From a virus: DNA of 38,961 bases. Each line of letters opens with the position of its first letter. Within the stretch, counting starts at the first letter, position 1. A program made the translations under genes and the position numbers. The stretch spans positions 1 through 38,961 of IMG/VR virus record IMGVR_UViG_3300044858_000658, one strand, 5' to 3'. Below the pieces are notes generated by a model. That model did no database searches. It was not told the origin of the DNA and worked only from the letters and a program-made list of their open reading frames with translations. Shown here piece by piece: positions 21,579-31,431 of this stretch.

Positions 21579-21606
21579 ATCGTAGCACCCTCCTTGACTT
21601 TGTCAA
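21579..21606 (-). promoter_or_regulatory. Sigma70-type promoter for the polymerase/nuclease/helicase transcript
   Basis: On the minus strand -35 TTGACA (21601-21606) and -10 TACGAT (21579-21584) are 16 bases apart. The first gene downstream starts at 21552. As at 14.7 kb, the -35 box lies in a CTTGAC-N3-GTCAAG palindrome, so both replication transcripts appear to share one control. Confidence 0.7.
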
Positions 21607-21643: not shown

Positions 21644-21659
21644 CCTAACAAAAGTTAGG
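21644..21659. promoter_or_regulatory. CCTAAC-N4-GTTAGG palindrome, site 1
   Basis: Perfect 16-bp form (centre AAAA). It lies between the terminator at 21669-21691 and the promoter at 21579-21606, about 38 bases upstream of the -35 box. Confidence 0.75.
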
Positions 21660-21668
21660 CACGGGCGT

Positions 21669-21691
21669 AAAAAAGCCCCGCAGCGCGGGGC
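21669..21691 (-). terminator. Rho-independent terminator after the HTH-DUF3310 gene
   Basis: On the minus strand GCCCCGC-GCT-GCGGGGC (7-bp stem, 3-base loop) is followed by six T. It ends the transcript that comes from the 27.7 kb promoter and separates it from the replication transcript. Confidence 0.85.
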
Positions 21692-21736
21692 ATGCGGGGC
21701 AGTTGGGGTGTTATCCCCCTGGAGAGACAAATGCAC

Positions 21737-22252
21737 TCATGCCGTGGTGTTCAGCACATCACGCAGCTTCATAGCGTACCAAGCCATCTTGCCAGCGTCA
21801 ACTTCGGCTTCGCCTTTCTTGCCTACACGGGAGGCGTACTTCAAGGCGCTACCCTTGAGGTAACCAATGAACTCCTCCTTGGTCAGCTTGGCCTGGATGA
21901 AGTCGATGGTCTCGATCCCACCTGCCTTGTAGTGGGCCGGGTGGTTGACCAAGTCGTCCTTCGGGTTGTGCGCCAGTCGGGTCACATCCTCGTGGAACTT
22001 GGCCTTGGGAAACAACTCTTGTTGCACTGCGGGAGGCACGGGCACAGTCACGCTGAACGTGTTGTTGTGCACCGCATCAATGTTGACTTCCTTCAACGTC
22101 GGGCTCGGTGCCTTGGGCTTCTTGTACTTGATTGCATACACCAAACTAACCTTTACGCCCAGTGCTGCGGCCACCTCTCGGGCCTTGGCCTGAGGGTTCT
22201 TAGCCAGATAGCGGCGGATGTGTTCACTCATTGACAGTTTCTTGCGACCCAT
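21737..22252 (-). CDS. HTH-DUF3310 fusion protein
   Basis: The product has 171 residues; the ATG has AAGGAG 7 bases upstream. Residues about 8-45 (SEHIRRYLAKNPQAKAREVAAAL, GVKVSLVYAIKYKK) look like a DNA-binding helix-turn-helix. Residues 102-168 (VNHPAHYKAGGIETIDFI, YLKGSALKYASR, KMAWYAMKL) are the DUF3310 domain, related to the T7 gp1.7 nucleotide kinase group. The fusion could join a regulator to a nucleotide-sensing or kinase part. It is the last gene before the terminator at 21669-21691. Confidence 0.8.
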   Translation of the reverse strand: MGRKKLSMSEHIRRYLAKNPQAKAREVAAALGVKVSLVYAIKYKKPKAPSPTLKEVNIDAVHNNTFSVTVPVPPAVQQELFPKAKFHEDVTRLAHNPKDDLVNHPAHYKAGGIETIDFIQAKLTKEEFIGYLKGSALKYASRVGKKGEAEVDAGKMAWYAMKLRDVLNTTA

Positions 22253-22454
22253 TTTGGGGCTCCTTCAGTTTCAGTTCGTCTCTAACATACTCGGTAAGAA
22301 CAGCACGCATCTGCGCTTGCTTGTCATCGGGGTGGTACTTGTTGAAGTACTCCATGACCTCTTGGCTTAGACGTATGCTCGTACAGAAAAGGGCGGGTTT
22401 CTTACCAGGGCCGCGCCCCTTACGCTTTGGTTGCTCAGCTATCTCCTCTAGCAT
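22224..22454 (-). CDS. Ribbon-helix-helix-like small regulator
   Basis: The product has 76 residues. The ATG at 22454 has AAGGAG 5 bases upstream and overlaps the previous stop as TAATG. A basic N-terminus (KRKGRGPGKK) precedes a segment with ribbon-helix-helix features (LFCTSIRLSQEVMEYFNKY, then MRAVLTEYVRDEL), similar to BrnA/CopG-type repressors. No toxin gene accompanies it, so a plain regulator is more likely than an antitoxin. It is a good candidate for binding one of the palindrome families nearby. Confidence 0.65.
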   Translation of the reverse strand: MLEEIAEQPKRKGRGPGKKPALFCTSIRLSQEVMEYFNKYHPDDKQAQMRAVLTEYVRDELKLKEPQNGSQETVNE

Positions 22455-22684
22455 TAACACTCCTTTGGTTGAAACAATCTTCCTTCGGCCTTGCACGGGC
22501 CTCGGGTTCGGTTATCGATGCAGGTGCCGATCCCTTTGCTTGCTTTGAAGGGGTTGGCGGCACAGCGCATAACCAAGTTGCCCGAGTAGACGCTAGGACT
22601 ATCCTCGCTCGGTCGGTAATGCTTGCATCGTTTGCACAGTTCACGTTGGGTTCCCCATTCATACTTCGGTAGGGTGAAAGGCAT
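22454..22684 (-). CDS. Small Cys-rich, probably zinc-binding protein
   Basis: The product has 76 residues. Cysteines are placed as LCKRCKHY (two), MRCAANPF, GTCIDN, GPCKAEG and a final PKEC, suggesting one or two metal sites. The ATG has no strong Shine-Dalgarno. The stop overlaps the next start as TAATG. Function unknown. Confidence 0.6.
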   Translation of the reverse strand: MPFTLPKYEWGTQRELCKRCKHYRPSEDSPSVYSGNLVMRCAANPFKASKGIGTCIDNRTRGPCKAEGRLFQPKEC

Positions 22685-22690
22685 GTTGCT

Positions 22691-22810
22691 TCAATAGATT
22701 GCAAAACCTATCAGCATAACCACAAGCAACACGGCACATACCACCAGGGATAAGACCAATCGCCCCACTAACTCAAACGCTTTGTCCATCTCCTCCGTCT
22801 GCCTGTCCAT
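22691..22810 (-). CDS. 39-residue single-pass membrane protein
   Basis: The ATG at 22810 has AAGGAG 8 bases upstream, within the end of the preceding gene. The first 17 residues (MDRQTEEMDKAFELVGR) are polar. The other 22 (LVLSLVVCAVLLVVMLIGFAIY) are one hydrophobic helix reaching the C-terminus. This is typical of tail-anchored small phage membrane proteins. Possible roles are holin-like, membrane anchoring or host modulation; none is proven. Confidence 0.6.
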   Translation of the reverse strand: MDRQTEEMDKAFELVGRLVLSLVVCAVLLVVMLIGFAIY

Positions 22811-22958
22811 CTCGCTTACTCCTTTCCTGCATCATGGCCTCGGCTACATCGAACGCAATCTCAGCGATGCTCTCGGGGTTGGAGGGGGCAGCACCCGCGC
22901 TGACCCATCCAAGCATCGCCAATCCTGCGTAGAAATCTCTGAGGTGTTTGTCATCCAT
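22773..22958 (-). CDS. Small conserved phage protein (AGLAMLGW type)
   Basis: The product has 61 residues from the ATG at 22958; an upstream in-frame ATG at 22973 lies inside the CTAAC palindrome and would give 66. The pattern DFYAGLAMLGW, ESIAEIAFDVAEAMMQER is common in small phage proteins of unknown role. The C-terminus is Gly/Asp-rich. Its end overlaps the start of the 39-residue membrane protein gene. Confidence 0.65.
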   Translation of the reverse strand: MDDKHLRDFYAGLAMLGWVSAGAAPSNPESIAEIAFDVAEAMMQERSKRDGQADGGDGQSV

Positions 22959-22966
22959 CAGTACAC

Positions 22967-22980
22967 CTAACATTTGTTAG
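22967..22980. promoter_or_regulatory. CTAAC-N4-GTTAG palindrome, site 2, over a stop-start junction
   Basis: 14-bp palindrome (centre ATTT on the plus strand). On the minus strand it holds the TAA stop of the gene upstream (22977-22979) and an ATG (22971-22973) in frame with the next gene. Confidence 0.7.
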
Positions 22981-23132
22981 AGCAACGCCTCAGGTGCGCC
23001 CTCGGTGGGGTCTACCTTCTTCTTGCGTTGTCGTGGTTGTTTGTATGGCTGACCCTTCCATGTCGGGAAGGGCCAGACCTTCGGTGGCGGGTCTAGCGCG
23101 TCCGCTTTTCGACGGGTTTTGCCAGTAGCCAT
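22977..23132 (-). CDS. Small basic Pro-rich protein
   Basis: The product would have 51 residues: a Lys/Arg-rich start (MATGKTRRKADAL), a Pro/Trp-rich middle (DPPPKVWPFPTWKGQ) and a basic tail. It fills an otherwise empty gap between two small genes, overlaps the previous gene by 40 bases and ends in the palindrome. No strong Shine-Dalgarno is present. Plausible but not certain. Confidence 0.45.
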   Translation of the reverse strand: MATGKTRRKADALDPPPKVWPFPTWKGQPYKQPRQRKKKVDPTEGAPEALL

Positions 23133-23251
23133 CGGTCACCCAATCTACGCACGGACTTCACCCATTGCCGTTGGTTGTGCCTCTGCGTGTGGATAGGCAC
23201 GTAATCAACAGCGAACAGTTCGCGCACCATCTTCAATGCTTTGGTGTTCAT
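23093..23251 (-). CDS. Small basic conserved phage protein
   Basis: The product has 52 residues from the ATG at 23251, which has AAGGAG 5 bases upstream; a second ATG just before it overlaps the previous stop. The sequence (MNTKALKMVRELFAVDYV, then QRHNQRQWVKSVRRLGDRWLLA) is basic, with a pattern I recognise from other environmental phages. It is a possible nucleic acid-binding protein. Function unknown. Confidence 0.6.
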   Translation of the reverse strand: MNTKALKMVRELFAVDYVPIHTQRHNQRQWVKSVRRLGDRWLLAKPVEKRTR

Positions 23252-24108
23252 CATTGCTCCTTCACTTCCGGCGTGATCACGAATGCGTCGGCTTTGACAC
23301 GGCAACCCACATCTCGAACCATCTGGTGATCTTCCACCAGCTTGAGCATGCCGATCTTCTCTCGCATGTAGTAGGGCAAGGTATCGTTCGTGTATGTCTG
23401 TGGTTCGCCTTTGCCCTGCACCACGATGTAGCGATCACTTTCCAATACTACGACAAGCGCCTCGCCTTTGTCAAACAGATCCTTGACATTGTCAATGATC
23501 ATGCAAACTTCCATGATCTCGTCGTACTTGTCTTTGTACTGGGCTCGATTCGGGAACTCAGCAAGGTACTGATCCATGTGGTTGGCTGTGAACTGATCTG
23601 AATTCTCCATAAGCTCCGCACGCCTACGATTCACATCCCAACTGATGTTAGATCTAGCACGGCCAAGAACTGCCTCGGCTTCCTCGCGTACCTTGTCGAG
23701 ACGCTCACTCGTACCCAGTCGGTAGAAGTGCTTGCGTATGGCGAGCAGTGCCTTCTCGGAGCTTTCAGTCCTGTAGCCACTACCGCGCTCACGCTTGGCG
23801 TCGATGCGCTCGTTCTTCACGACCAACTTGTAACCTGATCGGCAGTACTCGACGCCGATAGAGCCTAGCATCTCCCCACCCTCGGAGATGGTGACCTTAG
23901 TAGCTATGGCTTCGGTGCTCCAGATTCCGTGGTCGGCCACCGTGAAGATCCAGTTGGGCTTAGCCAACACCAGAGGGAACAGAGTGTCGTGAAGGTACTT
24001 GTTGATCTTGCGCTTGGGTTGCTCGACCGATTCAAATTCCTTGTTAAGGCGCACGTTGGGTTGAGTGAGCATTGCGCCTGTCTGCTCGGCTATGTTTGGA
24101 GTGATCAT
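23251..24108 (-). CDS. Hypothetical early protein, 285 residues
   Basis: The ATG at 24108 (MITPNIAEQTGAML) is chosen because the upstream extension has low-complexity sequence and crosses a palindrome. No strong Shine-Dalgarno is present. It shows a mixed alpha/beta N-terminal half (FTVADHGIWSTEAIATKVTI, GSIGVEYCRSGYKLVV) and a helical middle with many charged residues. No known domain recognised. It lies in the same transcript as the AAA/VWA pair, directly after the gene at 24159, so a shared process is possible. Confidence 0.65.
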   Translation of the reverse strand: MITPNIAEQTGAMLTQPNVRLNKEFESVEQPKRKINKYLHDTLFPLVLAKPNWIFTVADHGIWSTEAIATKVTISEGGEMLGSIGVEYCRSGYKLVVKNERIDAKRERGSGYRTESSEKALLAIRKHFYRLGTSERLDKVREEAEAVLGRARSNISWDVNRRRAELMENSDQFTANHMDQYLAEFPNRAQYKDKYDEIMEVCMIIDNVKDLFDKGEALVVVLESDRYIVVQGKGEPQTYTNDTLPYYMREKIGMLKLVEDHQMVRDVGCRVKADAFVITPEVKEQ

Positions 24109-24133
24109 TGCTTTCTCGCTTTCTTGGTTGTTA

Positions 24134-24147
24134 CTAACAGTTGTTAG
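24134..24147. promoter_or_regulatory. CTAAC-N4-GTTAG palindrome, site 3
   Basis: Centre AGTT on the plus strand. It lies in the gap between two minus-strand genes, about 26 bases upstream of the ATG at 24108. Confidence 0.7.
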
Positions 24148-24158
24148 GGTCGGCTGTG

Positions 24159-25025
24159 TTACCAGTCGAACTTGCTCAGGATGGTGTCCACCCGAGACTT
24201 CATGGTCTCCCGCACGATGGGGGATTCCTTGATCGCTTCGATGTCTGCGCCCACCATTGCTTGCTCCAACTGACGGCGGGCTTCTTCCAACTTCGGATCT
24301 CCGGTTACGTTGAGCTTGGTAAGCAACGCGCACAGATCGGTGGCGTTGGTAACCAGAGTCTCGTGGTAACGCTTCTTGGGTTTGTCGTCGTTGCTCGTGC
24401 TCGGCTCATCGGTCAGCTTCTCGCTCATCGCCGTCAGCGTGGCATGCAGTCGCTCCCACGGCTCACGCATAGCCTCGGCCAAGCGCAGGTCATAGTCGGC
24501 TGCGTACTTCTGCTGTAGCTCCTGCAACTCTTCGTTGGCTACATCCAGTCGGAAGTCACCCGCCTCAGGCAGAGGGGAGATGACATAGCGGAACCCGAAC
24601 CGATCCCGCACCTCATCCAATGATGGGTAGTCCTCGGCCTTGTACAGCTTGCCCAGGTGCAGGGGTGCATCGTTGAGCAGTTGCGGGTACGCAAGGAAGA
24701 AGTTGTCGCAGAACATGTTGAACTTCTGCTCGGCCTCGTTGATGAACGCCTTGTAGTCAAGGAACATCGAAGTAGGCAACAGACGCTCGCCCTTGTCTGC
24801 CCACGGCAGGGTCATACGCAGGTGCTTGACACGGCAATGCGCCGCGTACTTCTCAATGTCTTTGCGCAGGCTAGTACCCGCAAACAGATCCTTCATGAAC
24901 TTGCCTGCGTTGATACTCGCGTTGGCGTTGGTGTTGACTGCGTCGGTTACTTCGCGGTCGAGCTTGGATGCGGGCCACACGCTGATGTTGAGTGAGGCAA
25001 GAACGGCTGATGATGAGATGGACAT
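24159..25025 (-). CDS. Helical hypothetical protein, possibly DUF3150-like
   Basis: The product has 288 residues; AGGAG lies 6 bases before the ATG. The N-terminal part contains SISSSAVLASLNISVWPASKLD and LPTSMFLDYKAFINEAEQKFNMFCDNFFLAYP; the rest is helical with a charged linker. The layout recalls DUF3150 proteins, which I recall near MoxR/VWA pairs in phages, but I cannot confirm that without a search. Its place in the AAA/VWA transcript makes it a candidate partner or substrate of that pair. Confidence 0.6.
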   Translation of the reverse strand: MSISSSAVLASLNISVWPASKLDREVTDAVNTNANASINAGKFMKDLFAGTSLRKDIEKYAAHCRVKHLRMTLPWADKGERLLPTSMFLDYKAFINEAEQKFNMFCDNFFLAYPQLLNDAPLHLGKLYKAEDYPSLDEVRDRFGFRYVISPLPEAGDFRLDVANEELQELQQKYAADYDLRLAEAMREPWERLHATLTAMSEKLTDEPSTSNDDKPKKRYHETLVTNATDLCALLTKLNVTGDPKLEEARRQLEQAMVGADIEAIKESPIVRETMKSRVDTILSKFDW

Positions 25026-25052
25026 GGTTCGCTCCTATGTTTTACGGTTGCT

Positions 25053-25066
25053 CTAACAATTGTTAG
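25053..25066. promoter_or_regulatory. CTAAC-N4-GTTAG palindrome, site 4
   Basis: Centre AATT, so the whole 14 bp is a perfect palindrome. It lies in the gap just upstream of the Shine-Dalgarno of the gene starting at 25025. Confidence 0.7.
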
Positions 25067-25070
25067 GTGG

Positions 25071-25310
25071 TTAGGACTTCTCAGGTTTACCCGCCAACTT
25101 CGCCATGTTGTACAGGTCGGTGCCGAGTAGCCTGAGGTTGCCGATGAAGTGGGTGTCGTTGCTGTAGATGTGGTGCGTGTTGGGCTCAGGGCTAGGCCGA
25201 TACTTCTCTTCGTACCTCTCTGCCTTACCCAACAGTTCAGCAACCGTAACTGCATCCTTGAGATCGAGGACGTAGTTGGTGTATTCAAGAGTGAGGATTG
25301 CCTTAGACAT
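25071..25310 (-). CDS. Hypothetical small protein next to the VWA gene
   Basis: The product has 79 residues. The ATG at 25310 has AAGGAG 6 bases upstream. The sequence (MSKAILTLEYTNYVLDLKDAV, VAELLGKAERYEEKY, then GNLRLLGTDLYNMAKL) suggests a small alpha/beta protein. No family recognised. It lies 10 bases after the VWA gene and probably works with it. Confidence 0.6.
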   Translation of the reverse strand: MSKAILTLEYTNYVLDLKDAVTVAELLGKAERYEEKYRPSPEPNTHHIYSNDTHFIGNLRLLGTDLYNMAKLAGKPEKS

Positions 25311-25320
25311 TGCTGCTCCT

Positions 25321-26535
25321 TTATTCCCAGTCAGTGACATGAACTGTTTTGCCATTGGGAGCGACAGTCGTGTTACCCCCAACGATGCACCAGAGGACGG
25401 GGCACGACCAAGCACCGCCCCAATCGTCGCCCACATAACCGTCCGTAAGGACGATGACGCACTCAGGTTCAATCTTCTTCTCCTTCATGTACTCAGTGAT
25501 ACAGGTAGGCGAGGTGCCACCACCGCCCACGGGTTTGGTTGACTGCACAAGCGAGTCCATAGACTCAGGGCCGTAGGTCTCGTGTGCCACTACGCTGCTA
25601 CCCCAGTACAGCAAGTCCACCATCTCAGGCCGCACCGTTTCAAAGATAGCCTTCGACTCGGACAGGAACGCATTGAGTTCAGACCCACCGATGGAGCCAG
25701 AGGTGTCGATGGCCAACACGATGTGACCCACCGTCTCGCTCACTAGCGTAGGCATATACACACCCGAGCCGATGAACCGCCGGTTGACCCTGCGCCATGT
25801 GGATACATCCTTACCTGCACACACGGACTTCACGAACTCACGGAGTACATCTCTCCAGTCGATCTTGGGTGCAAGCAAGTCGCCCAACTCACGCGCCAGT
25901 CCACTCGTGCCTGAGCCTTTGACTTTCTGCTCGGCCATGACACCCTGACGGATGGCTTGGTCGATCTCGCGCTCAAGCTCCTTCTTCTCCTCCTCGGTCA
26001 GTTCACGCGCACCGTCCCAGTCGTGGTCGTCGAAGCCTTCGTCTTCACCGTCCCCGCCACCGCCGCCATTCTTCTGCTCCTGCTTGAGAATGTCGAACAC
26101 CTGCTTGGCATTCAGGCCACGGAACCGCTCATCGATCAGACCCAACAGCTTGCCGTCCTTGTCCTTGGGCATGGCAATGTCCACCTCGTACGGGTCGAGG
26201 TCACGCAGTTGCAGGTTGATCACGAAGTCACACGCACAGTTAGCGAGGTGGCTGTCCTCATCATGCAGCTTGCGCCATGTGGTCAGGTGCCGATACATCT
26301 TGTGCATAGCCTCGTGCAACACAACGAAGGCAAGCTCCTTCTCGTTGAGCATCTTGATGAACCCCGTGCCGTAGGTCTCGTCGCGTCCGTTGGTACGGGC
26401 AGTCGGAGTCTTGTCGTCCACGAAGGTCTTGCCCACCATCAGGACGCCGGACATGAGTGCGAACTTAGGGTTACGCAAGAGACTGATCTTCACCCGTTGG
26501 AGCTTGCGCTCCGGGGTCATGGTTGCTACTAACAT
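25321..26535 (-). CDS. Metallopeptidase-VWA protein (DUF2201-like)
   Basis: The product has 404 residues. The start is taken as the ATG at 26535, with AAGGAG 7 bases upstream; this ATG is inside a CTAAC palindrome. The N-terminal part has the zinc-peptidase motif H74-EAM-H78. A Gly/Asp-rich linker (156-175) follows. The C-terminal VWA domain has the MIDAS pattern DTSGS (277-281), T341 and D365 (LTDGY). This order matches the putative metallopeptidase plus VWA-like pair known as DUF2201. Proteins of this type work with MoxR AAA ATPases, and one is encoded directly upstream. Substrate unknown. Confidence 0.85.
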   Translation of the reverse strand: MLVATMTPERKLQRVKISLLRNPKFALMSGVLMVGKTFVDDKTPTARTNGRDETYGTGFIKMLNEKELAFVVLHEAMHKMYRHLTTWRKLHDEDSHLANCACDFVINLQLRDLDPYEVDIAMPKDKDGKLLGLIDERFRGLNAKQVFDILKQEQKNGGGGGDGEDEGFDDHDWDGARELTEEEKKELEREIDQAIRQGVMAEQKVKGSGTSGLARELGDLLAPKIDWRDVLREFVKSVCAGKDVSTWRRVNRRFIGSGVYMPTLVSETVGHIVLAIDTSGSIGGSELNAFLSESKAIFETVRPEMVDLLYWGSSVVAHETYGPESMDSLVQSTKPVGGGGTSPTCITEYMKEKKIEPECVIVLTDGYVGDDWGGAWSCPVLWCIVGGNTTVAPNGKTVHVTDWE

Positions 26536-26542
26536 TTGTTAG
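26529..26542. promoter_or_regulatory. CTAAC-N4-GTTAG palindrome, site 5, over a start codon
   Basis: Centre ATTT on the plus strand. On the minus strand it lies between the AAGGAG and the rest of the VWA gene and supplies the ATG at 26535, so bound protein or an RNA hairpin here would affect initiation. Confidence 0.7.
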
Positions 26543-26554
26543 CTCCTTCTTTGT

Positions 26555-27625
26555 TTACAGCAGGTCTTGGTTGTCGGCGACCCACTTGCTGAAGTCACGG
26601 TTACCGAACGCGATGGACTGCTTGCTCGTGTTGCGTGCAATGTTGATTGCGAAGGTTGCTTGCCACTCGGCTTGGAACCGCTTGACATACTCCATGAACG
26701 CAGAGAAGTTGGACTTCTCCGATGCTGCGATCAGACCGTAGATCACCACAGCACACGCACCGGGTTGGTCGGGCACCTTGGCACTCTTGGGGTCGGCAAT
26801 GATCGACTCGCGTGTGGGCATCTGGTCGGCGTAGGCAATGAACGCTTGCATATCCCGTGCACCTGCCTCACCCAAAGTACCTGCAAGCGCGGCGATGAGG
26901 GAGTCGGAACTGAAGTGGGCTCGTTGCTTGACGATGTTGGATGCCAACTCCAATGTGCGGGGGCAGATGTACCCGTCCTGCTGAGCGCGGGGGTTGTAGA
27001 TGTACGGGTTGTCCTTCTGTGTGCCGTCCAGATAGGAAGCAAGCACCTGAGGGAATCGGTCAACATACGCACACACCTCGGGAGCAATGCCGTGAGGGAT
27101 AGCCCAAGGCAACCACTGTTCAGCGGTGGGTTTGAGCACGGTAACTTTTGTTAGGCGTGCGCTAGTGTGGGCTTTCATGTTGTCGCCCACACCATCGGAG
27201 GACAGATTGCCCGTGGTGAAGATGATTGAGTCGGGATGGATAGGGATGTCGCCCAGGCGTGGGTTGGCTACCTCAAGCATGGGGTGGAGCATGTTCATCA
27301 CCGGGGCAGGGGCCTTGGTGAACTCGTCCATCATGATTGCCACGGGCTTGCCCTCTTCCAACAGGAATCTAGCGTTGGGGTAGTAGCGGGTAGTCTTGGT
27401 GGCGTGATCCACGACAGGCATTGCAATGTCGCCCAAGTCCATGTTGGGGCAGTCGATGTACGCCACGGGCAGACCAGTGCGCTCGCCGATGCGCTTGAGC
27501 ATGGATGACTTGCCGATGCCCGGCTCGCCACGCAGGTGGAAGCGGTTGCGCCGCACATTCACAAGCAAGTCCTCGGCTTCCTTGAGGGAGACGGTCTTGC
27601 CAAAGTTGATTTCGGTTTTTGCCAT
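26555..27625 (-). CDS. MoxR-type AAA+ ATPase
   Basis: The product has 356 residues. Walker A is GEPGIGKS (33-40), Walker B IMMDEF (97-102), sensor 1 TTGN (137-140), and an arginine near 157 is a candidate finger. This matches the MoxR branch, whose members remodel partner proteins and are coupled to VWA proteins. The VWA-metallopeptidase gene follows 19 bases later. It is the first gene behind the perfect promoter at 27712-27740. Together they look like a phage-encoded chaperone-like machine; target unknown. Confidence 0.9.
   Translation of the reverse strand: MAKTEINFGKTVSLKEAEDLLVNVRRNRFHLRGEPGIGKSSMLKRIGERTGLPVAYIDCPNMDLGDIAMPVVDHATKTTRYYPNARFLLEEGKPVAIMMDEFTKAPAPVMNMLHPMLEVANPRLGDIPIHPDSIIFTTGNLSSDGVGDNMKAHTSARLTKVTVLKPTAEQWLPWAIPHGIAPEVCAYVDRFPQVLASYLDGTQKDNPYIYNPRAQQDGYICPRTLELASNIVKQRAHFSSDSLIAALAGTLGEAGARDMQAFIAYADQMPTRESIIADPKSAKVPDQPGACAVVIYGLIAASEKSNFSAFMEYVKRFQAEWQATFAINIARNTSKQSIAFGNRDFSKWVADNQDLL
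27142..27153. promoter_or_regulatory. TAAC-N4-GTTA palindrome core inside the MoxR gene
   Basis: 12-bp core of the CCTAAC family (centre TTTT) inside coding sequence, where it encodes Leu-Thr-Lys-Val. The right arm has the full GTTAGG; the left arm is imperfect. Confidence 0.4.
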
Positions 27626-27639
27626 TTGCTTTCTCCGTT

Positions 27640-27653
27640 CTAACTTCTGTTAG
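27640..27653. promoter_or_regulatory. CTAAC-N4-GTTAG palindrome, site 6
   Basis: Centre TTCT. It lies just upstream of the Shine-Dalgarno of the MoxR gene (start 27625) and downstream of its promoter. Confidence 0.7.
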
Positions 27654-27711
27654 GTTTGGTTGCGTCCGTGGTTGGTAGATAGTGGGTCGGACGAATTCCC
27701 ACTATCTTTAT

Positions 27712-27740
27712 ATTATAACACAATGTTATGTACATGTCAA
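27712..27740 (-). promoter_or_regulatory. Perfect-consensus sigma70 promoter of the AAA/VWA transcript
   Basis: On the minus strand TTGACA (27735-27740), 17 bases, TATAAT (27712-27717). It should start RNA near 27705, upstream of the MoxR gene. The spacer holds a TAACA-N3-TGTTA palindrome that reaches into the -10 box. It lies in the 157-bp gap at 27626-27782. Confidence 0.85.
27715..27729. promoter_or_regulatory. Operator-like palindrome ATAACA-CAA-TGTTAT
   Basis: Perfect 6-bp arms with a 3-base centre overlap the spacer and -10 of the promoter. The promoter at 29535-29563 has the same core in the same place. Confidence 0.6.
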
Positions 27741-27782
27741 GCGTTTCCCGTGGTACGGAGCTTGATTTGCACACCCAATCTT

Positions 27783-28937
27783 TCAGTCCTTGTCTCGCGT
27801 GACCCACTTGAGGTACTTCGCAGTCGGCACCGTCCCTTCCTTGGCGGGGGCGATCTCGATTACCTCGTCGCTGTGCCACTTGAAGATGATCTCGTCCATC
27901 GCACGGCTGATCTGCTTGGGGTCGAGGCTGAAGTTCTCCGGGCCCAGGAATCTGCGGTTGCCTTGTAGTGCAAAGTGGGACAGATACACGAACGCTTGGT
28001 AGAAGGACTCGGTCTCGTCCAGCGGGTTGCCGTCCTTGTCTACACCGCACCCCCTAACTTTTGTTAGGAACGCCTCAGTAGCTGCAACCCAAGCATCGTA
28101 CGGCTCACGGCTCTCCTTCTGCGCCCATGTGTCGTTGGCCTCGTCGCGCACATAGATGGATGTGTAGATAGCGGGCTTGTCGAGCGGGTTGCGCGTGAGG
28201 GTCGGATGCTCTTGGTCGAAGCGGAGTTCGGTACGCAGGGGCAGCTTGCGGCTGTGCGTGTTGGTTGTGGGTATCACCGCAATGATTTCCTCCTCGGCGA
28301 ATTCGATCCGGTCGTAGGTATCCACAACCTCCTCGTCGTTCTTGTAGTCGTAGTAGTTGTCGGTGTAGGTCTGCTTGCGCACCCCGATCATGCCCTTCAT
28401 GTAGCGGTAGAAGTCACCGTAGCGTGCGCGTACCTCGTTGGCCTTCTTGCGGTTGATCTTGGGCACATGGAGCGTGGGCACGGACTCGGGCAGGGGAGTG
28501 AGCGAGTTGGCCTTAGCGTCGTAAGTGAAGCGCATGCAGGTGTTGTGCGGCATCACGAACTTCTGCCCGTCCAGTGCCTCAAGCACTAGCCTGCCGTAGT
28601 CGGTGCGTGCGTCCTTGATGTAGCGCCCAAGAACCTCCACGATGAAGTAGCAGTCGCACGAACTCCACCGATACCTGCGGTTGGTTGCGGGGGTGCCAGG
28701 GGTGCCGATGGTCAAGGTGTCGTCGGCGTGGAAAGTAATCAGCGGCAGGTTGTAGAGGGAGAGGGTTACATCTCCGTTTCCTTCTCTACTGATACCGAAC
28801 TTGGTGGAGTCGGAGCGGCGACCCAATGGGAACCGCACAGGGACGCTTCCCCTGATCGGAGTGGTCTGGTTGAAGCGGCAGAGTGCCTCGGCGTGCGTAC
28901 TCAGGTACGGGAGGTGACGGTATGAGGTGTAGGACAT
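27783..28937 (-). CDS. Conserved phage protein, 384 residues, unknown function
   Basis: The start is MSYTSYRHLPYLSTHAEAL. The N-terminal half contains PIRGSVPVRFPLGRRSD and LYNLPLITFHADDTL, a pattern I have seen in hypothetical proteins of environmental phages. The middle has basic and acidic clusters; the C-terminus is mixed. No enzyme motif seen. There is no clear Shine-Dalgarno. Two CCTAAC palindromes are associated with it, one in its leader (28967) and one inside it (28053). Confidence 0.7.
   Translation of the reverse strand: MSYTSYRHLPYLSTHAEALCRFNQTTPIRGSVPVRFPLGRRSDSTKFGISREGNGDVTLSLYNLPLITFHADDTLTIGTPGTPATNRRYRWSSCDCYFIVEVLGRYIKDARTDYGRLVLEALDGQKFVMPHNTCMRFTYDAKANSLTPLPESVPTLHVPKINRKKANEVRARYGDFYRYMKGMIGVRKQTYTDNYYDYKNDEEVVDTYDRIEFAEEEIIAVIPTTNTHSRKLPLRTELRFDQEHPTLTRNPLDKPAIYTSIYVRDEANDTWAQKESREPYDAWVAATEAFLTKVRGCGVDKDGNPLDETESFYQAFVYLSHFALQGNRRFLGPENFSLDPKQISRAMDEIIFKWHSDEVIEIAPAKEGTVPTAKYLKWVTRDKD
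28053..28068. promoter_or_regulatory. CCTAAC-N4-GTTAGG palindrome, site 7, inside a gene
   Basis: Perfect 16-bp form (centre TTTT) inside the gene at 27783-28937. It encodes Leu-Thr-Lys-Val-Arg using CTA, ACA and AGG, codons that look uncommon beside the surrounding GC-rich choices. Confidence 0.65.
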
Positions 28938-28966
28938 TTTGGTTGCCTTTGTGGTTGCGTTGGTAT

Positions 28967-28982
28967 TCCTAACTATTGTTAG
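28967..28982. promoter_or_regulatory. CCTAAC-N4-GTTAGG palindrome, site 8
   Basis: Perfect 16-bp form (centre TATT), 30 bases upstream of the gene starting at 28937. A possible 12-codon reading frame on the minus strand (GTG at 29017) ends with a TAA at its edge. Confidence 0.75.
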
Positions 28983-29013
28983 GCGTTAGCTTTAGCTGTG
29001 TTCTTTGCGGTGT

Positions 29014-29091
29014 TCACAGTGCCTCCAATTCAATCAGCACCCACAGCAGGGCCAGCTTCACGAACACGAATAAAAGGTACCACTCCATCAT
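29014..29091 (-). CDS. 25-residue membrane peptide
   Basis: The ATG at 29091 overlaps the previous stop as ATGA; a second ATG follows at once, with TGGAGG just upstream. Almost all of it (MEWYLLFVFVKLALLWVLIELEAL) is one hydrophobic helix. It follows a gene for another small membrane protein. Very short, so only moderately certain. Confidence 0.45.
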   Translation of the reverse strand: MMEWYLLFVFVKLALLWVLIELEAL

Positions 29092-29231
29092 GGCCTCCAT
29101 ACGAACATATCCAGAAGCACGACCACCACGGCACAGCCGTAGACGGTTAGCCACACGAGCAGGTGCACGCCACCTGCCACTCTCTCCTGCACGCGCTTGG
29201 CGTACGCTTCCTCGATGCCTGTCTCGCTCAT
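29088..29231 (-). CDS. 47-residue single-pass membrane protein
   Basis: The ATG at 29231 overlaps the previous stop (ATGA) and has AAGGAGG 9 bases upstream. A charged N-terminus (MSETGIEEAYAKRVQERVAGG) leads to a hydrophobic helix (VHLLVWLTVYGCAVVVVLLDMFVW). A role at the inner membrane early in infection is a guess from position. Confidence 0.6.
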   Translation of the reverse strand: MSETGIEEAYAKRVQERVAGGVHLLVWLTVYGCAVVVVLLDMFVWRP

Positions 29232-29449
29232 TTGACTAGCCCTCCTTTGTTGTTGATGCCGATGAGGTCGGCGGGGTTGGTGAATAGCATGTAGTTGGAT
29301 TTGTGCATGGGGGCCACAGTCCAACTCTTTCTCTCCTCTCGGGCAATGTCATCACCGCAGGGGAGGCAGTAGCGGTAGCCCAGTTGGGCACGCTCGGTGG
29401 GGTAGTCGTCGCCGCACACACAGCAGGATCGCCAGTCGTGGTCAGTCAT
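29228..29449 (-). CDS. Small zinc-finger-like protein
   Basis: The product has 73 residues. The ATG at 29449 has AAGGAG 6 bases upstream. Two Cys pairs (CCVCGDDYP and YCLPCGDD, near residues 9-33) look like one zinc-binding site in the style of small DksA/TraR-like or treble-clef proteins. It is the first gene behind the perfect promoter at 29535-29563. Could act on host transcription; not shown. Confidence 0.65.
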   Translation of the reverse strand: MTDHDWRSCCVCGDDYPTERAQLGYRYCLPCGDDIAREERKSWTVAPMHKSNYMLFTNPADLIGINNKGGLVK

Positions 29450-29460
29450 CGTCGCTCCTT

Positions 29461-29474
29461 CTAACAAAAGTTAG
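29461..29474. promoter_or_regulatory. CTAAC-N4-GTTAG palindrome, site 9
   Basis: Centre AAAA. It directly adjoins the AAGGAG of the gene starting at 29449 and lies downstream of the promoter at 29535-29563. Confidence 0.7.
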
Positions 29475-29534
29475 GTTTGGGGTTGGTTGCTCGGGTCGGG
29501 CTGCGTCTCTCCGGGCGCTTTTTCAGTATATTTA

Positions 29535-29563
29535 ATTATAACACAATGTTACGGGAATGTCAA
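29535..29563 (-). promoter_or_regulatory. Perfect-consensus sigma70 promoter of the small-gene transcript
   Basis: On the minus strand TTGACA (29558-29563), 17 bases, TATAAT (29535-29540). The RNA should start near 29528, ahead of the zinc-finger gene at 29449. The spacer contains TAACA-N3-TGTTA (29539-29551), as at 27.7 kb. Confidence 0.85.
29539..29551. promoter_or_regulatory. Operator-like palindrome TAACA-CAA-TGTTA
   Basis: Lies across the spacer and -10 box of the promoter at 29535-29563 in the same register as the one at 27715-27729. The two spacers agree over the last 11 bases before the -10 box. Confidence 0.6.
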
Positions 29564-29776
29564 GTTTTTGGCTGAGCAGGTGGCTGAGAGGCAAGCGGGG
29601 TGTTTGGGGGGGGTGCGGAGCGGGTGTTGTTACGAGAAATGGGGAAGTTATAACTTTGGCAGTTGAGGCGTAACACAATTTTGGGCTGTAAGTTGTTGAT
29701 TTTGAAAAGGAAAGTTAGATAGTTAGATAGAATGTTATAATGTTAAATGAAAAAAAAAAAAATAACCTCGTAGAGG

Positions 29777-29791
29777 CTTGACAATGTCAAG
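29777..29791. promoter_or_regulatory. Palindromic operator CTTGAC-AAT-GTCAAG
   Basis: Third member of the CTTGAC-N3-GTCAAG family. It contains a TTGACA on each strand, but no good -10 box lies at 16-18 bases on either side, so here it may be a bare binding site. Confidence 0.5.
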
Positions 29792-29856
29792 AGTGGGCTT
29801 GCACTTGCCGTATGCCTCATTGTCAAGTCTCTACACAGATATACTCTTTTTTGGGC

Positions 29857-29869
29857 GTAACATTGTAAC
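29857..29869 (+). repeat. 13-bp repeat GTAACATTGTAAC, copy 1
   Basis: Identical to 30029-30041. It shares TAACATTGT with the operators in the two perfect promoters. Confidence 0.6.
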
Positions 29870-30021
29870 ATTAGGAAAATGTTGTTTAGAATCAAGCACT
29901 TAGGAGTGTTATGCTCGTAACAATACCCAATAACAACCTCTTTTTTTATCACTTCGTAGTACAGGGTTAACCCGCGATTTCAGTCCTTACGGTTACTAGA
30001 GTAAAAACCAAGGGTAAACCC

Positions 30022-30049
30022 TTTACCTGTAACATTGTAACAATATAAC
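30022..30049 (+). promoter_or_regulatory. Possible plus-strand promoter in the control region
   Basis: TTTACC (30022-30027), 16 bases, TATAAC (30044-30049): four and five matches to the consensus. The spacer holds GTAACATTGTAAC, and the -10 runs into a CTAAC-family palindrome. A terminator follows about 75 bases later with no gene between. Confidence 0.4.
30029..30041 (+). repeat. 13-bp repeat GTAACATTGTAAC, copy 2
   Basis: Identical to 29857-29869. It lies inside the spacer of the possible plus-strand promoter at 30022-30049. Confidence 0.6.
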
Positions 30050-30057
30050 ATTTGTTA
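30046..30057. promoter_or_regulatory. TAAC-N4-GTTA palindrome, site 10
   Basis: 12-bp core of the CCTAAC family (centre ATTT) with a full right arm GTTAGG. It overlaps the -10 box and likely start of the possible plus-strand promoter. Confidence 0.55.
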
Positions 30058-30073
30058 GGTCGGGCCCGATTCG

Positions 30074-30105
30074 CGTGGGCTACAGCCCCTCAGAGAACTG
30101 GTGCA
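30074..30105 (+). repeat. 32-bp direct repeat, copy 1
   Basis: Matches 30132-30163 at 30 of 32 positions. It starts CGTGGGCTACAGCC and ends AGAGAACTGGTGCA. The two copies flank a plus-strand terminator. Confidence 0.75.
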
Positions 30106-30108
30106 GGT

Positions 30109-30131
30109 AGCACGAACGGTCGTGCTTTTTT
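30109..30131 (+). terminator. Plus-strand rho-independent terminator with no gene upstream
   Basis: AGCACGA-ACGG-TCGTGCT (7-bp stem, 4-base loop) is followed by five more T. There is no plus-strand gene before it, which points to a short non-coding transcript. Confidence 0.75.
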
Positions 30132-30163
30132 CGTGGGCTACAGCCGCGCAGAGAACTGGTGCA
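30132..30163 (+). repeat. 32-bp direct repeat, copy 2
   Basis: See copy 1 at 30074-30105; two mismatches, both in the centre. The last 11 bases recur at 21626-21636. Confidence 0.75.
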
Positions 30164-30182
30164 TTCCGCAAACTCAGCTAGT

Positions 30183-30198
30183 CCTAACAAATGTTAGG
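30183..30198. promoter_or_regulatory. CCTAAC-N4-GTTAGG palindrome, site 11
   Basis: Perfect 16-bp form (centre AAAT). It lies just beyond the minus-strand terminator at 30222-30245, the same arrangement as site 1. Confidence 0.75.
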
Positions 30199-30221
30199 AA
30201 ACACTGACAAAGCGTGAACGC

Positions 30222-30245
30222 AAAAAAGCCCGCACTAGGCGGGCT
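30222..30245 (-). terminator. Rho-independent terminator after the 30.3 kb gene
   Basis: On the minus strand AGCCCGC and GCGGGCT (7 bp, 5-base loop) are followed by a T-run. It ends the transcript of the two genes at 30265-31037. Confidence 0.85.
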
Positions 30246-30264
30246 GTAGGTAGCAGGGAAAGGG

Positions 30265-30486
30265 TTAGCGGTGCAGATTGTTGTCGGTATCACCGTCCAA
30301 CCACCACGCTACATATTCGGTGATGCCGTGGGTACGGTGGCCATCGAACCCGAACACGGGCGGCTCGGACTCCTCATTCGGTGGTGCAACGAAGAATTCC
30401 AGGGCCCTTTCAAAGCGGTGTTGCAGGGCTCGCTCGAACCTTTCGGCGGTGATGATACCGGGGAGGGTCAATTGCTTTGGGGTCAT
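30265..30486 (-). CDS. Hypothetical small protein
   Basis: The product has 73 residues. The ATG at 30486 has TTAGGAG 7 bases upstream, and the TTAGG part is the arm of a palindrome. The sequence is MTPKQLTLPGIITAERFERAL, then an acidic stretch (PPNEESEPPVFGFDG) and YVAWWLDGDTDNNL. No family recognised. It is the last gene before the terminator at 30222-30245. Confidence 0.65.
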   Translation of the reverse strand: MTPKQLTLPGIITAERFERALQHRFERALEFFVAPPNEESEPPVFGFDGHRTHGITEYVAWWLDGDTDNNLHR

Positions 30487-30495
30487 TTCAGTGCT

Positions 30496-30511
30496 CCTAA
30501 CATTTGTTAGG
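30496..30511. promoter_or_regulatory. CCTAAC-N4-GTTAGG palindrome, site 12, over a ribosome-binding site
   Basis: Perfect 16-bp form (centre ATTT on the plus strand). On the minus strand its right arm runs into TTAGGAG, the Shine-Dalgarno of the gene starting at 30486. Confidence 0.75.
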
Positions 30512-30536
30512 AAGGGGGTTTCCCCCCTTCCCGTGG

Positions 30537-31037
30537 TCAGCCCAACTTCTCCACATCACCGCCCATGCGGCCGAACACATCCATCAGCACGGCCTTCTCA
30601 TCCGACCAGTCGGTTTCCTTGCCGTCCTCCTCCATCTTAAAGATCCGGTTAATCAGGGTTTTCAGGTCGGCGAGGTTCAGCGCCGCAGGGTCAGAGTCAC
30701 CAGACACTCGGTTTTGAGTTTTAATCCGACCCGCCGCATCTTTGACCCGCGACCAGTAAACATCGATGGTTCCCTGCTCGAAGCCTTTAGCCTTGAACGC
30801 TTCGACAAACTTGGTGCGCTCAGCTTTGATAGGGGCGGCGAGCTTGCCCTTAAGATCAAACCACTTGGTTGTCACCTTGCCATCAGCGCCGAGCAGGTCA
30901 AACGATTGATTCAGCGCCGTGGCGTAGGTCGACAACACTTCACCAGTCTTGCCTGCAATTTCCACTACAGCGGCGCGAGCCGAATCCAGGGAAACAACGG
31001 TGGCCGTGTTGGCCGGGGTCACAAGGGTAGCACTCAT
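30537..31037 (-). CDS. Hypothetical early protein, 166 residues
   Basis: The ATG at 31037 has GGAGA 8 bases upstream. The protein is helical, with an Ala/Val-rich start (SATLVTPANTATVVSLDSARAAVVEIAG), a Lys-rich middle (KGKLAAPIKAERTKFVEAFKAKG) and an acidic C-terminus. TIDVYWSRVKDAAGRIK could be a DNA-contact segment. No known family. It is the first minus-strand gene after the divergent late operon, so it could be among the earliest expressed. Confidence 0.65.
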   Translation of the reverse strand: MSATLVTPANTATVVSLDSARAAVVEIAGKTGEVLSTYATALNQSFDLLGADGKVTTKWFDLKGKLAAPIKAERTKFVEAFKAKGFEQGTIDVYWSRVKDAAGRIKTQNRVSGDSDPAALNLADLKTLINRIFKMEEDGKETDWSDEKAVLMDVFGRMGGDVEKLG

Positions 31038-31108
31038 GCTAGGTTCTCCAAACTACCTGGAATCTGCCAGGGATCAGATCGATCAGGACAGCCCCAATCG
31101 ATAAATCC

Positions 31109-31137
31109 ATATTCTCATATTTTGTGGTGCAAATCAA
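31109..31137 (-). promoter_or_regulatory. Weak candidate promoter for the 31.0 kb gene
   Basis: On the minus strand TTGATT (31132-31137), 17 bases, GAATAT (31109-31114). It is far from consensus compared with the other promoters, but is the best placed candidate for this transcript. Confidence 0.3.
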
Positions 31138-31173
31138 ATCTACAGTGAACATTAATTCGTGGTACAGCCTGAC

Positions 31174-31187
31174 CTAACAAATGTTAG
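31174..31187. promoter_or_regulatory. CTAAC-N4-GTTAG palindrome, site 13
   Basis: Centre AAAT; left arm complete (CCTAAC). It lies upstream of the weak candidate promoter for the gene starting at 31037. This is the rightmost member of the family. Confidence 0.7.
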
Positions 31188-31431
31188 AAAAGCTGGAAAA
31201 CCGAGACCCCACCACACCCCCACCCCCCAAGGCCAGGAGAAGGAGTCCCAGACAACGCATAAACTGTGATCTGCACAACCAATGTTGTGTTTTAATTTTT
31301 TATATTTTTCTGTACCACAAGACCCCACCCCCCTCTTTTTAGGGAACACCCCCCGTCAGGAGTCCCAACCTCCTTTACAACCCCACCTATATCTATTACA
31401 GTCGGCCCAATTTCGTTGGTGCTCATTCCCG

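Follow-up and report, generated by a model that had tools for sequence, protein, structure and literature searches.

The viral DNA analyzed here, a stretch of 38,961 bases from IMG/VR virus record IMGVR_UViG_3300044858_000658 that we call the window (all window coordinates are on its scale), carries numerous copies of the palindrome CTAAC-N4-GTTAG dispersed along one block of early genes. In relatives the same arms occur at a spacer of 2, 3, 4 or 5, or the arms are altered, so that the motif is genome-specific. The class of the motif follows the type of the protein encoded by the first early gene, a product of 166 amino acids (aa) that we named g166. We consider it probable, if well short of certain, that the palindromes are dispersed operators in double-stranded DNA bound by a dimer of the g166 family, which would block or shut off early transcription.

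Palindromic sites in the window and in relatives

Twelve exact copies of CTAAC-N4-GTTAG were found in the window, all within 21,645–31,187. Five of them have the full 16 bp, CCTAAC-N4-GTTAGG (at 21644, 28053, 28968, 30183, and 30496), and seven have the shorter form, as a model's reading of the letters (the first-pass annotation) had reported. Another three, at 23638, 27141, and 30045, carry a single mismatch, giving up to 15 sites between 21,644 and 31,188, of which that at 23638 could be chance. The 14 sites counted earlier were presumably the 12 exact copies and the TAAC-N4-GTTA cores at 27141 and 30045; the total is now 15 with the doubtful one. The pattern read backwards had no copies in the window. 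With up to two mismatches there were 20 window matches (9.25 ± 3.17 in shuffles); only sites with zero or one mismatch were taken as meaningful because the five two-mismatch matches were scattered. The sites are as follows:

21644..21659: site 1, full 16 bp, distal block end, behind a terminator-like hairpin
22966..22981: site 2, 8 nt 5' of ATG 22958
23637..23652: site 3, intragenic, 10-base core with one mismatch, possibly chance
24133..24148: site 4, 25 nt 5' of ATG 24108
25052..25067: site 5, 27 nt 5' of the DUF3150-like gene
26528..26543: site 6, 8 nt 5' of the VWA gene, ATG 26520
27140..27155: site 7, TAAC-N4-GTTA core, within the MoxR-like ATPase gene
27639..27654: site 8, 14 nt 5' of the MoxR-like ATPase gene, ~+53 from the 27740 promoter
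28053..28068: site 9, full 16 bp, within the 384-aa gene
28968..28983: site 10, full 16 bp, 31 nt 5' of the 384-aa gene
29460..29475: site 11, 11 nt 5' of the zinc-finger gene, ~+55 from the 29563 promoter
30044..30059: site 12, TAAC-N4-GTTA core, intergenic
30183..30198: site 13, full 16 bp, behind a terminator-like hairpin
30496..30511: site 14, full 16 bp, flanking g166 downstream, 10 nt 5' of the next ATG
31173..31188: site 15, upstream flank of g166

The minus strand carries the genes of this region. Eight sites lie 8–31 nt 5' of a minus-strand ATG (22967, 24134, 25053, 26529, 27640, 28969, 29461, and 30497) and another four occupy gaps elsewhere (21645, 30045, 30184, and 31174), those at 21645 and 30184 directly after terminator-like hairpins. 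The earlier description of the sites as lying at gene starts, stops and gaps applies to these 12 but not to the three intragenic sites (23638, 27141, and 28054).

No site with zero or one mismatch was observed in the window outside ~21.6–31.2 kb, in agreement with the earlier claim, and the confinement extends to relatives. In two relatives of complete size, 13/13 N3 sites of a 66.5-kb record and 12/12 of a 64.5-kb record fall within ~10 kb, and the nine sites at both contig ends of a 63.9-kb record form one block if that genome is circular or permuted. Sites outside the early block were rare (one of 15 in a 35-kb record, at 19,439, and one in locus L049, at 12,912). The first 50 kb of each of the terminase relatives DSL-LC04, 023Pt_psg01, and HTVC027P held only a few repeated palindromes, A/T- or G/C-rich. 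A phage typically carries a dozen or more copies, ~0.6–1 kb apart along the early genes. This spacing is more even than random: the coefficient of variation was 0.26–0.70 against ~0.90 for random placement and fell below the random mean in 18/18 loci, with P<0.05 in 13/18, although the loci are not independent.

Positions are also conserved within genes. A site occupies the same codon positions in 22/27 ATPase orthologs (SNIV, TCT AAC ATT GTT), 16/25 VWA, 10/22 384-aa, and 8/24 DUF3150-like orthologs, counts that take in weaker cores. The VWA codons read SDIC in L011 and L012, giving a TGAC form of the site, where they read SNIV elsewhere. The window lacks these conserved internal sites and carries different ones. 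The earlier expectations, that the motif would be denser here than outside the early region and that its positions would be conserved in relatives, were thus largely borne out: the sites stay in one ~10-kb block, and their positions are kept while the motif drifts.

The loci compared were obtained with the ATPase (41) and with the DUF3150-like protein (80, one overlapping), the 80 being taken from at least 566 confirmed IMG/VR matches. In the set searched, 74 loci had at least four TAAC-type sites. Counting a spacer class from two copies on, 64/74 had a single class (39 N3 only, 21 N4 only, and 4 N5 only) and 10 were mixed, many of the 74 being near-duplicate contigs whose counts are not independent. 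The mixed loci always combined neighboring spacers, namely (3,4) in four, (4,5) in three, (3,4,5) in two, and (2,3) in one. Altered arms include CTGAC-N4-GTCAG in L011 and L012 and GGAAC/GTTCC-type arms with N3 in L065–L070. L007 has CTAAT-N3-GTTAG, with seven copies in one orientation and three in the opposite one, plus one symmetric CTAAC-N3-GTTAG. In relatives at a greater distance, comparable gaps are occupied by unrelated palindromes, such as GACAAAGTWAC-N5-GTWACTTTGTC in L036 and, in L031, GGAA...GCACGATATCGTGC...TTCC, which has no spacer and consists of two separated blocks of pairs. Some MoxR relatives have no clear repeated palindrome (e.g., L033 and L038), and L023 has only two sites.

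Further variants were CTAAG-N4-CTTAG in L075, CTGAC-N5-GTCAG in L131, L133–L138, and L141, and GTGAC-N3-GTCAC in L132. At ~985–1030 of L016 a site coincides with an intrinsic-terminator-like sequence (CCCCTAACAATTGTTAGGGGTTTTTT). In L036 (12521–12706) and L045 (12751–12927) small ribbon-helix-helix-like genes are directly followed by a palindrome, of other motifs.

Motif class and the first early gene

We propose g166 as the binder because the motif class follows the g166 type, unlike the types of the other block proteins. The association set comprised 42 genomes with g166; genomes lacking a class of at least three sites were left out. None of the 96 g166 pairs at ≥45% identity differed in motif class, and the highest g166 identity between genomes of different class was 43%. 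After thinning to 27 genomes, this maximum was again 43% for g166 and 65–89% for the other proteins. The values for the other proteins in the full set, given as the highest cross-class identity followed by the fraction of pairs at ≥80% identity that differ in class, were:

MoxR-like ATPase: 97%; 311/593
VWA protein: 100% (a fragment pair); 81/296
DUF3150-like protein: 98%; 229/600
Ribbon-helix-helix-like (RHH) protein: 97%; 57/225
DUF3310 protein: 95%; 8/77
285-aa protein: 88%; 23/119
DNA polymerase: 89%; 21/137
384-aa protein (p384): 78%; 0/33 (39/126 at 45% identity)

A natural swap is seen between L077, L079, and L080 (N3) and L081 (N4). Between them the MoxR and DUF3150-like proteins are 97% identical, the VWA and RHH proteins 93%, and the DUF3310 protein 95%, with g166 at 17%. 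The DNA of L077 and L081 is 86–92% identical in the two longest aligned stretches, and at nine aligned spots an N3 core lies opposite an N4 core. The internal MoxR site of L077, TCT AAC ATT GTT AGG, corresponds to AGC AAT ATC GTG CGG in L081, and the internal site in the DUF3150-like gene, CTA ACA ATG TTA, to TTG ACT ATG TTA; in both cases the amino acids are the same. The third internal N3 site, in the 384-aa gene, is opposite an imperfect N4 core.

Where a motif-classed locus extends 7.5 kb or more upstream of MoxR, the g166 gene was present (11/11). It has a site upstream in 40/42 genomes and downstream in 38/42; only in L012, L087, and L090 do these flanking sites depart from the dominant class. 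The AlphaFold2 model of g166 (mean predicted local distance difference test score 84) is all-alpha apart from a single short strand, and helices 64–83 and 88–101 of the model look like a helix-turn-helix (HTH). Sequence searches gave scattered weak matches in Pfam and PHROGs (best E 0.0076 and 0.0032), one weak PDB match, to RSC8 (E 0.0036), and no match among phage records at E up to 1.

The first-pass annotation had suggested the XRE, ribbon-helix-helix, and HTH-DUF3310 proteins as binders, none of which now appears likely. The RHH protein, initially favored for its place at the block end, occurs as near-identical copies in genomes with different spacers and arms, and its AlphaFold2 model is a two-helix monomer with no fold match. 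The DUF3310 protein likewise does not follow the motif, as its mixed pairs indicate, and the XRE gene is also found in relatives without this motif. The zinc-finger gene was set aside as well, being 84% identical across classes.

Several observations weigh against g166 as the binder or against the way we suppose it to act. Its model has no convincing structural match in PDB or BFVD and matches no known DNA-binding fold. The protein evolves fast and by nature yields fewer high-identity cross-class pairs, and p384 likewise had no mixed pairs at 80%, but did at 45%. The swapped pair has diverged left of p384, so that a neighboring gene could be the true driver. Twenty-eight of the blocks were chosen for carrying g166, whose presence there is no evidence. 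Nearest-neighbor class agreement for g166 was 37/42. Some genomes do not fit cleanly: L016 is N4, yet its g166 resembles N3 types; L087 and L090 are mainly N4, with g166 flanked by an N3 and an N5 site; and L012 is classed N3 by count, with g166 flanked by TGAC-N4 sites. A spacer that drifts by 1–3 bp between fixed arms is not what a rigid DNA-binding dimer would ordinarily show. Five of 52 strong promoters have an N5 core at the -10, which makes direct promoter repression possible too, and promoters and start points are predictions throughout.

The genes named above have the following positions in the window:

30537..31037, minus strand: first early gene, g166, 166 aa, candidate site-binding protein (from the motif-class association, flanking sites and AlphaFold2 model)
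27783..28937, minus strand: 384-aa gene (p384), early gene with one internal site
26555..27625, minus strand: MoxR-like ATPase, whose relatives hold the most conserved internal site
25321..26520, minus strand: VWA protein (DUF2201)
24159..25025, minus strand: DUF3150-like gene, named from the annotation of one match and used as a query for finding relatives
22224..22457, minus strand: RHH protein near the distal block end, tested as binder, unsupported
21737..22252, minus strand: HTH-DUF3310 protein, tested as binder, unsupported

Promoters, mechanism and alternative explanations

To place the sites relative to transcription, 22 early blocks were scanned for predicted promoters, a strong promoter being one with at least 11/12 consensus bases. 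There were 52 strong promoter-like sequences, none of which overlapped a site of the dominant class (or, in L012, TGAC). A downstream site was found for 42 of them, between +27 and +62 relative to the predicted start in 39/42 and at 150–256 bp in 3/42; the other 10/52 had none. When the count was repeated with any TAAC-N2..7-GTTA core, 5/52 strong promoters were overlapped; all five belong to N4 genomes, and the overlapping core, at the -10, is N5 in each. Both window promoters are among these:

29535..29563, minus strand: sigma-70-like early promoter, 12/12, TAAC-N5-GTTA core over the -10
27712..27740, minus strand: sigma-70-like early promoter, 12/12, TAAC-N5-GTTA core over the -10

These N5 cores may represent a second operator, one that acts at the promoter. 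Both window promoters share TAACA-TTG-TGTTA at this place, similar N5 cores occur in one promoter each of L005, L094, and L105, and related GTTACAATGTTAC repeats are present at ~29,850–30,045 of the window. In 10/22 genomes, the window not among them, a predicted promoter matching ≥10/12 consensus bases precedes g166, and in 10/10 of these a site starts 34–60 bp upstream of the promoter's -35. This site is outside the g166 transcript because it is located 5' of the -35. A separate palindrome, TTGACAAAGTCAA, lies over the -35 of promoter-like sequences at ~21,591–21,606 and 14,727 (minus strand) of the window, near the start of the replication genes, and also in L006 and L065; it is a different type of operator. 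Hairpin promoters of the N4 type, which would serve a virion RNA polymerase, were also considered and dropped, as the block promoters look like the host sigma-70 type.

From the motif, its layout, its conservation and its match with the g166 type we infer physical binding by a g166 dimer, a roadblock and a role in timing. A g166 dimer would read TAACA/TGTTA half-sites in double-stranded DNA, and each g166 type would prefer one spacer length and thereby have its own spacer class. Binding would occur first at the sites flanking its own gene and then at the sites just 3' of the strong early promoters and every ~0.6–1 kb within the operon. Bound g166 would act as a series of transcription roadblocks, possibly also bridging neighboring sites. 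As g166 rose, the early operon would be shut off, with the replication and late genes left largely free.

The palindromes could instead act in RNA, as 5–6 bp mRNA hairpins near ribosome-binding sites that are bound by a translational repressor (g166) or cut by an RNase, an alternative that the first-pass annotation had raised. Hairpins would fit the eight window sites just 5' of an ATG, the relatives' sites at +27 to +62 in predicted 5' leaders, the palindromy that persists between distant relatives while the sequence shifts, and spacers of 3–5, which also suit a loop. They would also fit the biased orientation of the spacer, which tends to be A-rich on the sense strand (AAT 89 vs. ATT 49; AAAT 28 vs. 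ATTT 10); in the window block this strand itself has a mild excess of A (0.251 vs. 0.201). However, an RNA stem would favor G-U among the non-Watson-Crick pairs, and in the six inner pairs of 289 sites from 22 loci, read on the sense strand, there were 35 G-U and 58 A-C. The sixth pair supplied most of these (G-U 30, A-C 55), pairs 1–5 having five G-U and three A-C. The arms are nearly invariant and the spacer sequence varies freely; this fixed stem and free loop is the reverse of the pattern of the usual hairpin binders. The asymmetric L007 site is found in both orientations, the L031 palindrome has no spacer and separated pair blocks, and one inner pair in L036 is T-T or A-A in 6/10 sites. 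Intragenic sites exist, and the site upstream of g166 is outside the transcript in 10/10 genomes with a predicted promoter there. We regard a hairpin function as decidedly unlikely, mainly in view of the G-U test, the L007 orientations, and the site outside the first-gene transcript. The dimeric DNA-binding protein that the annotation had put forward fits best.

A different phage protein, such as RHH, HTH-DUF3310, XRE or an unrecognized gene near g166, could bind the same DNA sites, which we consider rather unlikely. The RHH gene is at the distal block end with a site close behind it in many genomes, the other small RHH-like genes of L036 and L045 are directly followed by a site, and the swapped segment extends beyond g166. 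Yet pairs of RHH (57/225) and DUF3310 (8/77) proteins at ≥80% identity differ in class, L103 and L105 share RHH but differ in spacer use, and the zinc-finger and XRE genes fail as described above. We give little chance to sites that organize or mark DNA (partition, packaging, condensation or protection of incoming DNA) and do not control transcription. Even spacing and intragenic sites would suit such a role, but not the link to promoters (39/42 at +27 to +62), the restriction to an early operon ending near the start of the replication genes, or the lack of a ParA match in seven records. Functionless repeats homogenized by copying, like the repetitive extragenic palindromes (REP) of bacteria, would account for copies that are similar within a genome and different between genomes, and the chance of this is negligible: only the core is shared and not the flanks, copies occur at the same codons in up to 22/27 orthologs, and they are missing through synonymous differences in a genome of another class.

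If binding by g166 is correct, a broader hypothesis is possible, which we offer tentatively and with considerable doubt. These apparently lytic phages would have an immunity-like specificity system, in which small all-alpha DNA-binding proteins are swapped whole and their own half-site spacings force the operon sites, even those within conserved codons, to be rewritten, often in single-base steps. Diversity would be driven by competition among co-infecting relatives, with the resident g166 silencing the early operon of a newcomer of the same class. Operators bound by g166 would add an uncharacterized family of DNA-binding proteins and a way in which phages could control an entire operon through elongation. 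They would also provide a natural record of how specificity shifts jointly in a regulator and its dozen or more dispersed targets. Close genomes of different spacer length differ in g166, and the specificity code is thus directly testable.

Known systems, related phages and neighboring genes

The closest known design is that of the stoperators of L5-like (Cluster A) mycobacteriophages, which the present system resembles without being a member. As set out in PMC6550527, these phages have 20–30 stoperators, mostly away from promoters and oriented with transcription, which stop elongation and whose motif varies with the repressor among relatives. Here too there are many sites per genome (12 exact in the window), mostly off promoters (0/52 overlaps for the dominant class, 5/52 for an N5 core), with a repressor-site role that we infer, and the motif class tracks the candidate regulator g166. 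Unlike stoperators, which are asymmetric 13-bp sites spread genome-wide, the present sites are palindromic, almost wholly in the early block, present even within conserved codons, and divided into spacer-length classes, and the candidate binder has no convincing Pfam or PDB family match. The earlier comparison with L5, a stoperator-like layout with a true palindrome, holds for layout and palindromy. The lifestyle probably also differs from that of the temperate L5-like phages. No tyrosine integrase was found in 12 records, some of them fragments (serine integrase was not searched), and no ParA in seven. A pattern-based scan of bacterial and archaeal genomes, of limited reach, gave only two confirmed matches of the DUF3150-like alignment. 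Based on these three results, a lytic lifestyle is suggested for the family.

A second comparison is with phage SPbeta, whose repeated element SPBRE is dispersed, located in promoter regions, and bound by a single phage protein, MrpR, with a tyrosine-recombinase fold, as described in PMC10516654. The present system shares a dispersed repeated element and, presumably, one phage protein; unlike SPBRE, its sites mostly avoid promoters, and its candidate protein is small and all-alpha. Both stoperators and the SPbeta element are temperate-phage systems that differ from the present one in the symmetry or position of their sites. The start-associated sequences of Cluster K phages are asymmetric repeats just before start codons that overlap the ribosome-binding site. 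They share with the present sites a position just 5' of start codons, but the present sites are palindromic and also lie within genes and upstream of a promoter.

An isolated phage, Pag-Yong1 (OL906435), has the same gene module; its own palindrome, GGTTCAG-N-CTGAACC, precedes many early start codons and flanks the first early gene. Its arms and spacer differ from those of the present system, and the window g166 as a query had no match in it. Copies outside the main early run lie at 26006, 29637, and 6491 of L060, our locus from this phage. As an isolated phage of the same design it is an entry to experiments. The records OQ594354, OL906435, and PP438419 are each exactly 65,014 bp and gave identical match values under different names and cyanobacterial hosts; they are possibly one phage deposited three times, with its host uncertain. 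The stretch of OL906435 that was examined has 67–69% GC. None of the papers searched named Pag-Yong1 or linked DUF3150 with phage, and none of those listed in broader searches dealt with this system, judging by titles and abstract openings.

The window is probably a fragment of a larger phage genome because the longest related records are 60–68 kb. Its large terminase has 52–58% identity to those of DSL-LC04, 023Pt_psg01, and HTVC027P. The early block runs from g166 through small genes to the 384-aa gene, the MoxR-like ATPase, VWA, an 83-aa gene, the DUF3150-like gene, the 285-aa gene, RHH, and DUF3310. Next come a nuclease, DNA polymerase A, and further replication genes, which in the window are without sites. 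In the product of 21737–22252 (minus strand), DUF3310 is joined to an N-terminal HTH-like stretch that is strongly variable among relatives. Elsewhere in the window, 3695–9967 (plus strand) encodes a 2,090-aa protein with a HELLHA metallopeptidase-like motif and no Pfam match in its first 702 residues, and a 291-aa gene at 546–1421 contains a glycine-rich tract of GGTGG-type repeats at ~950–1105.

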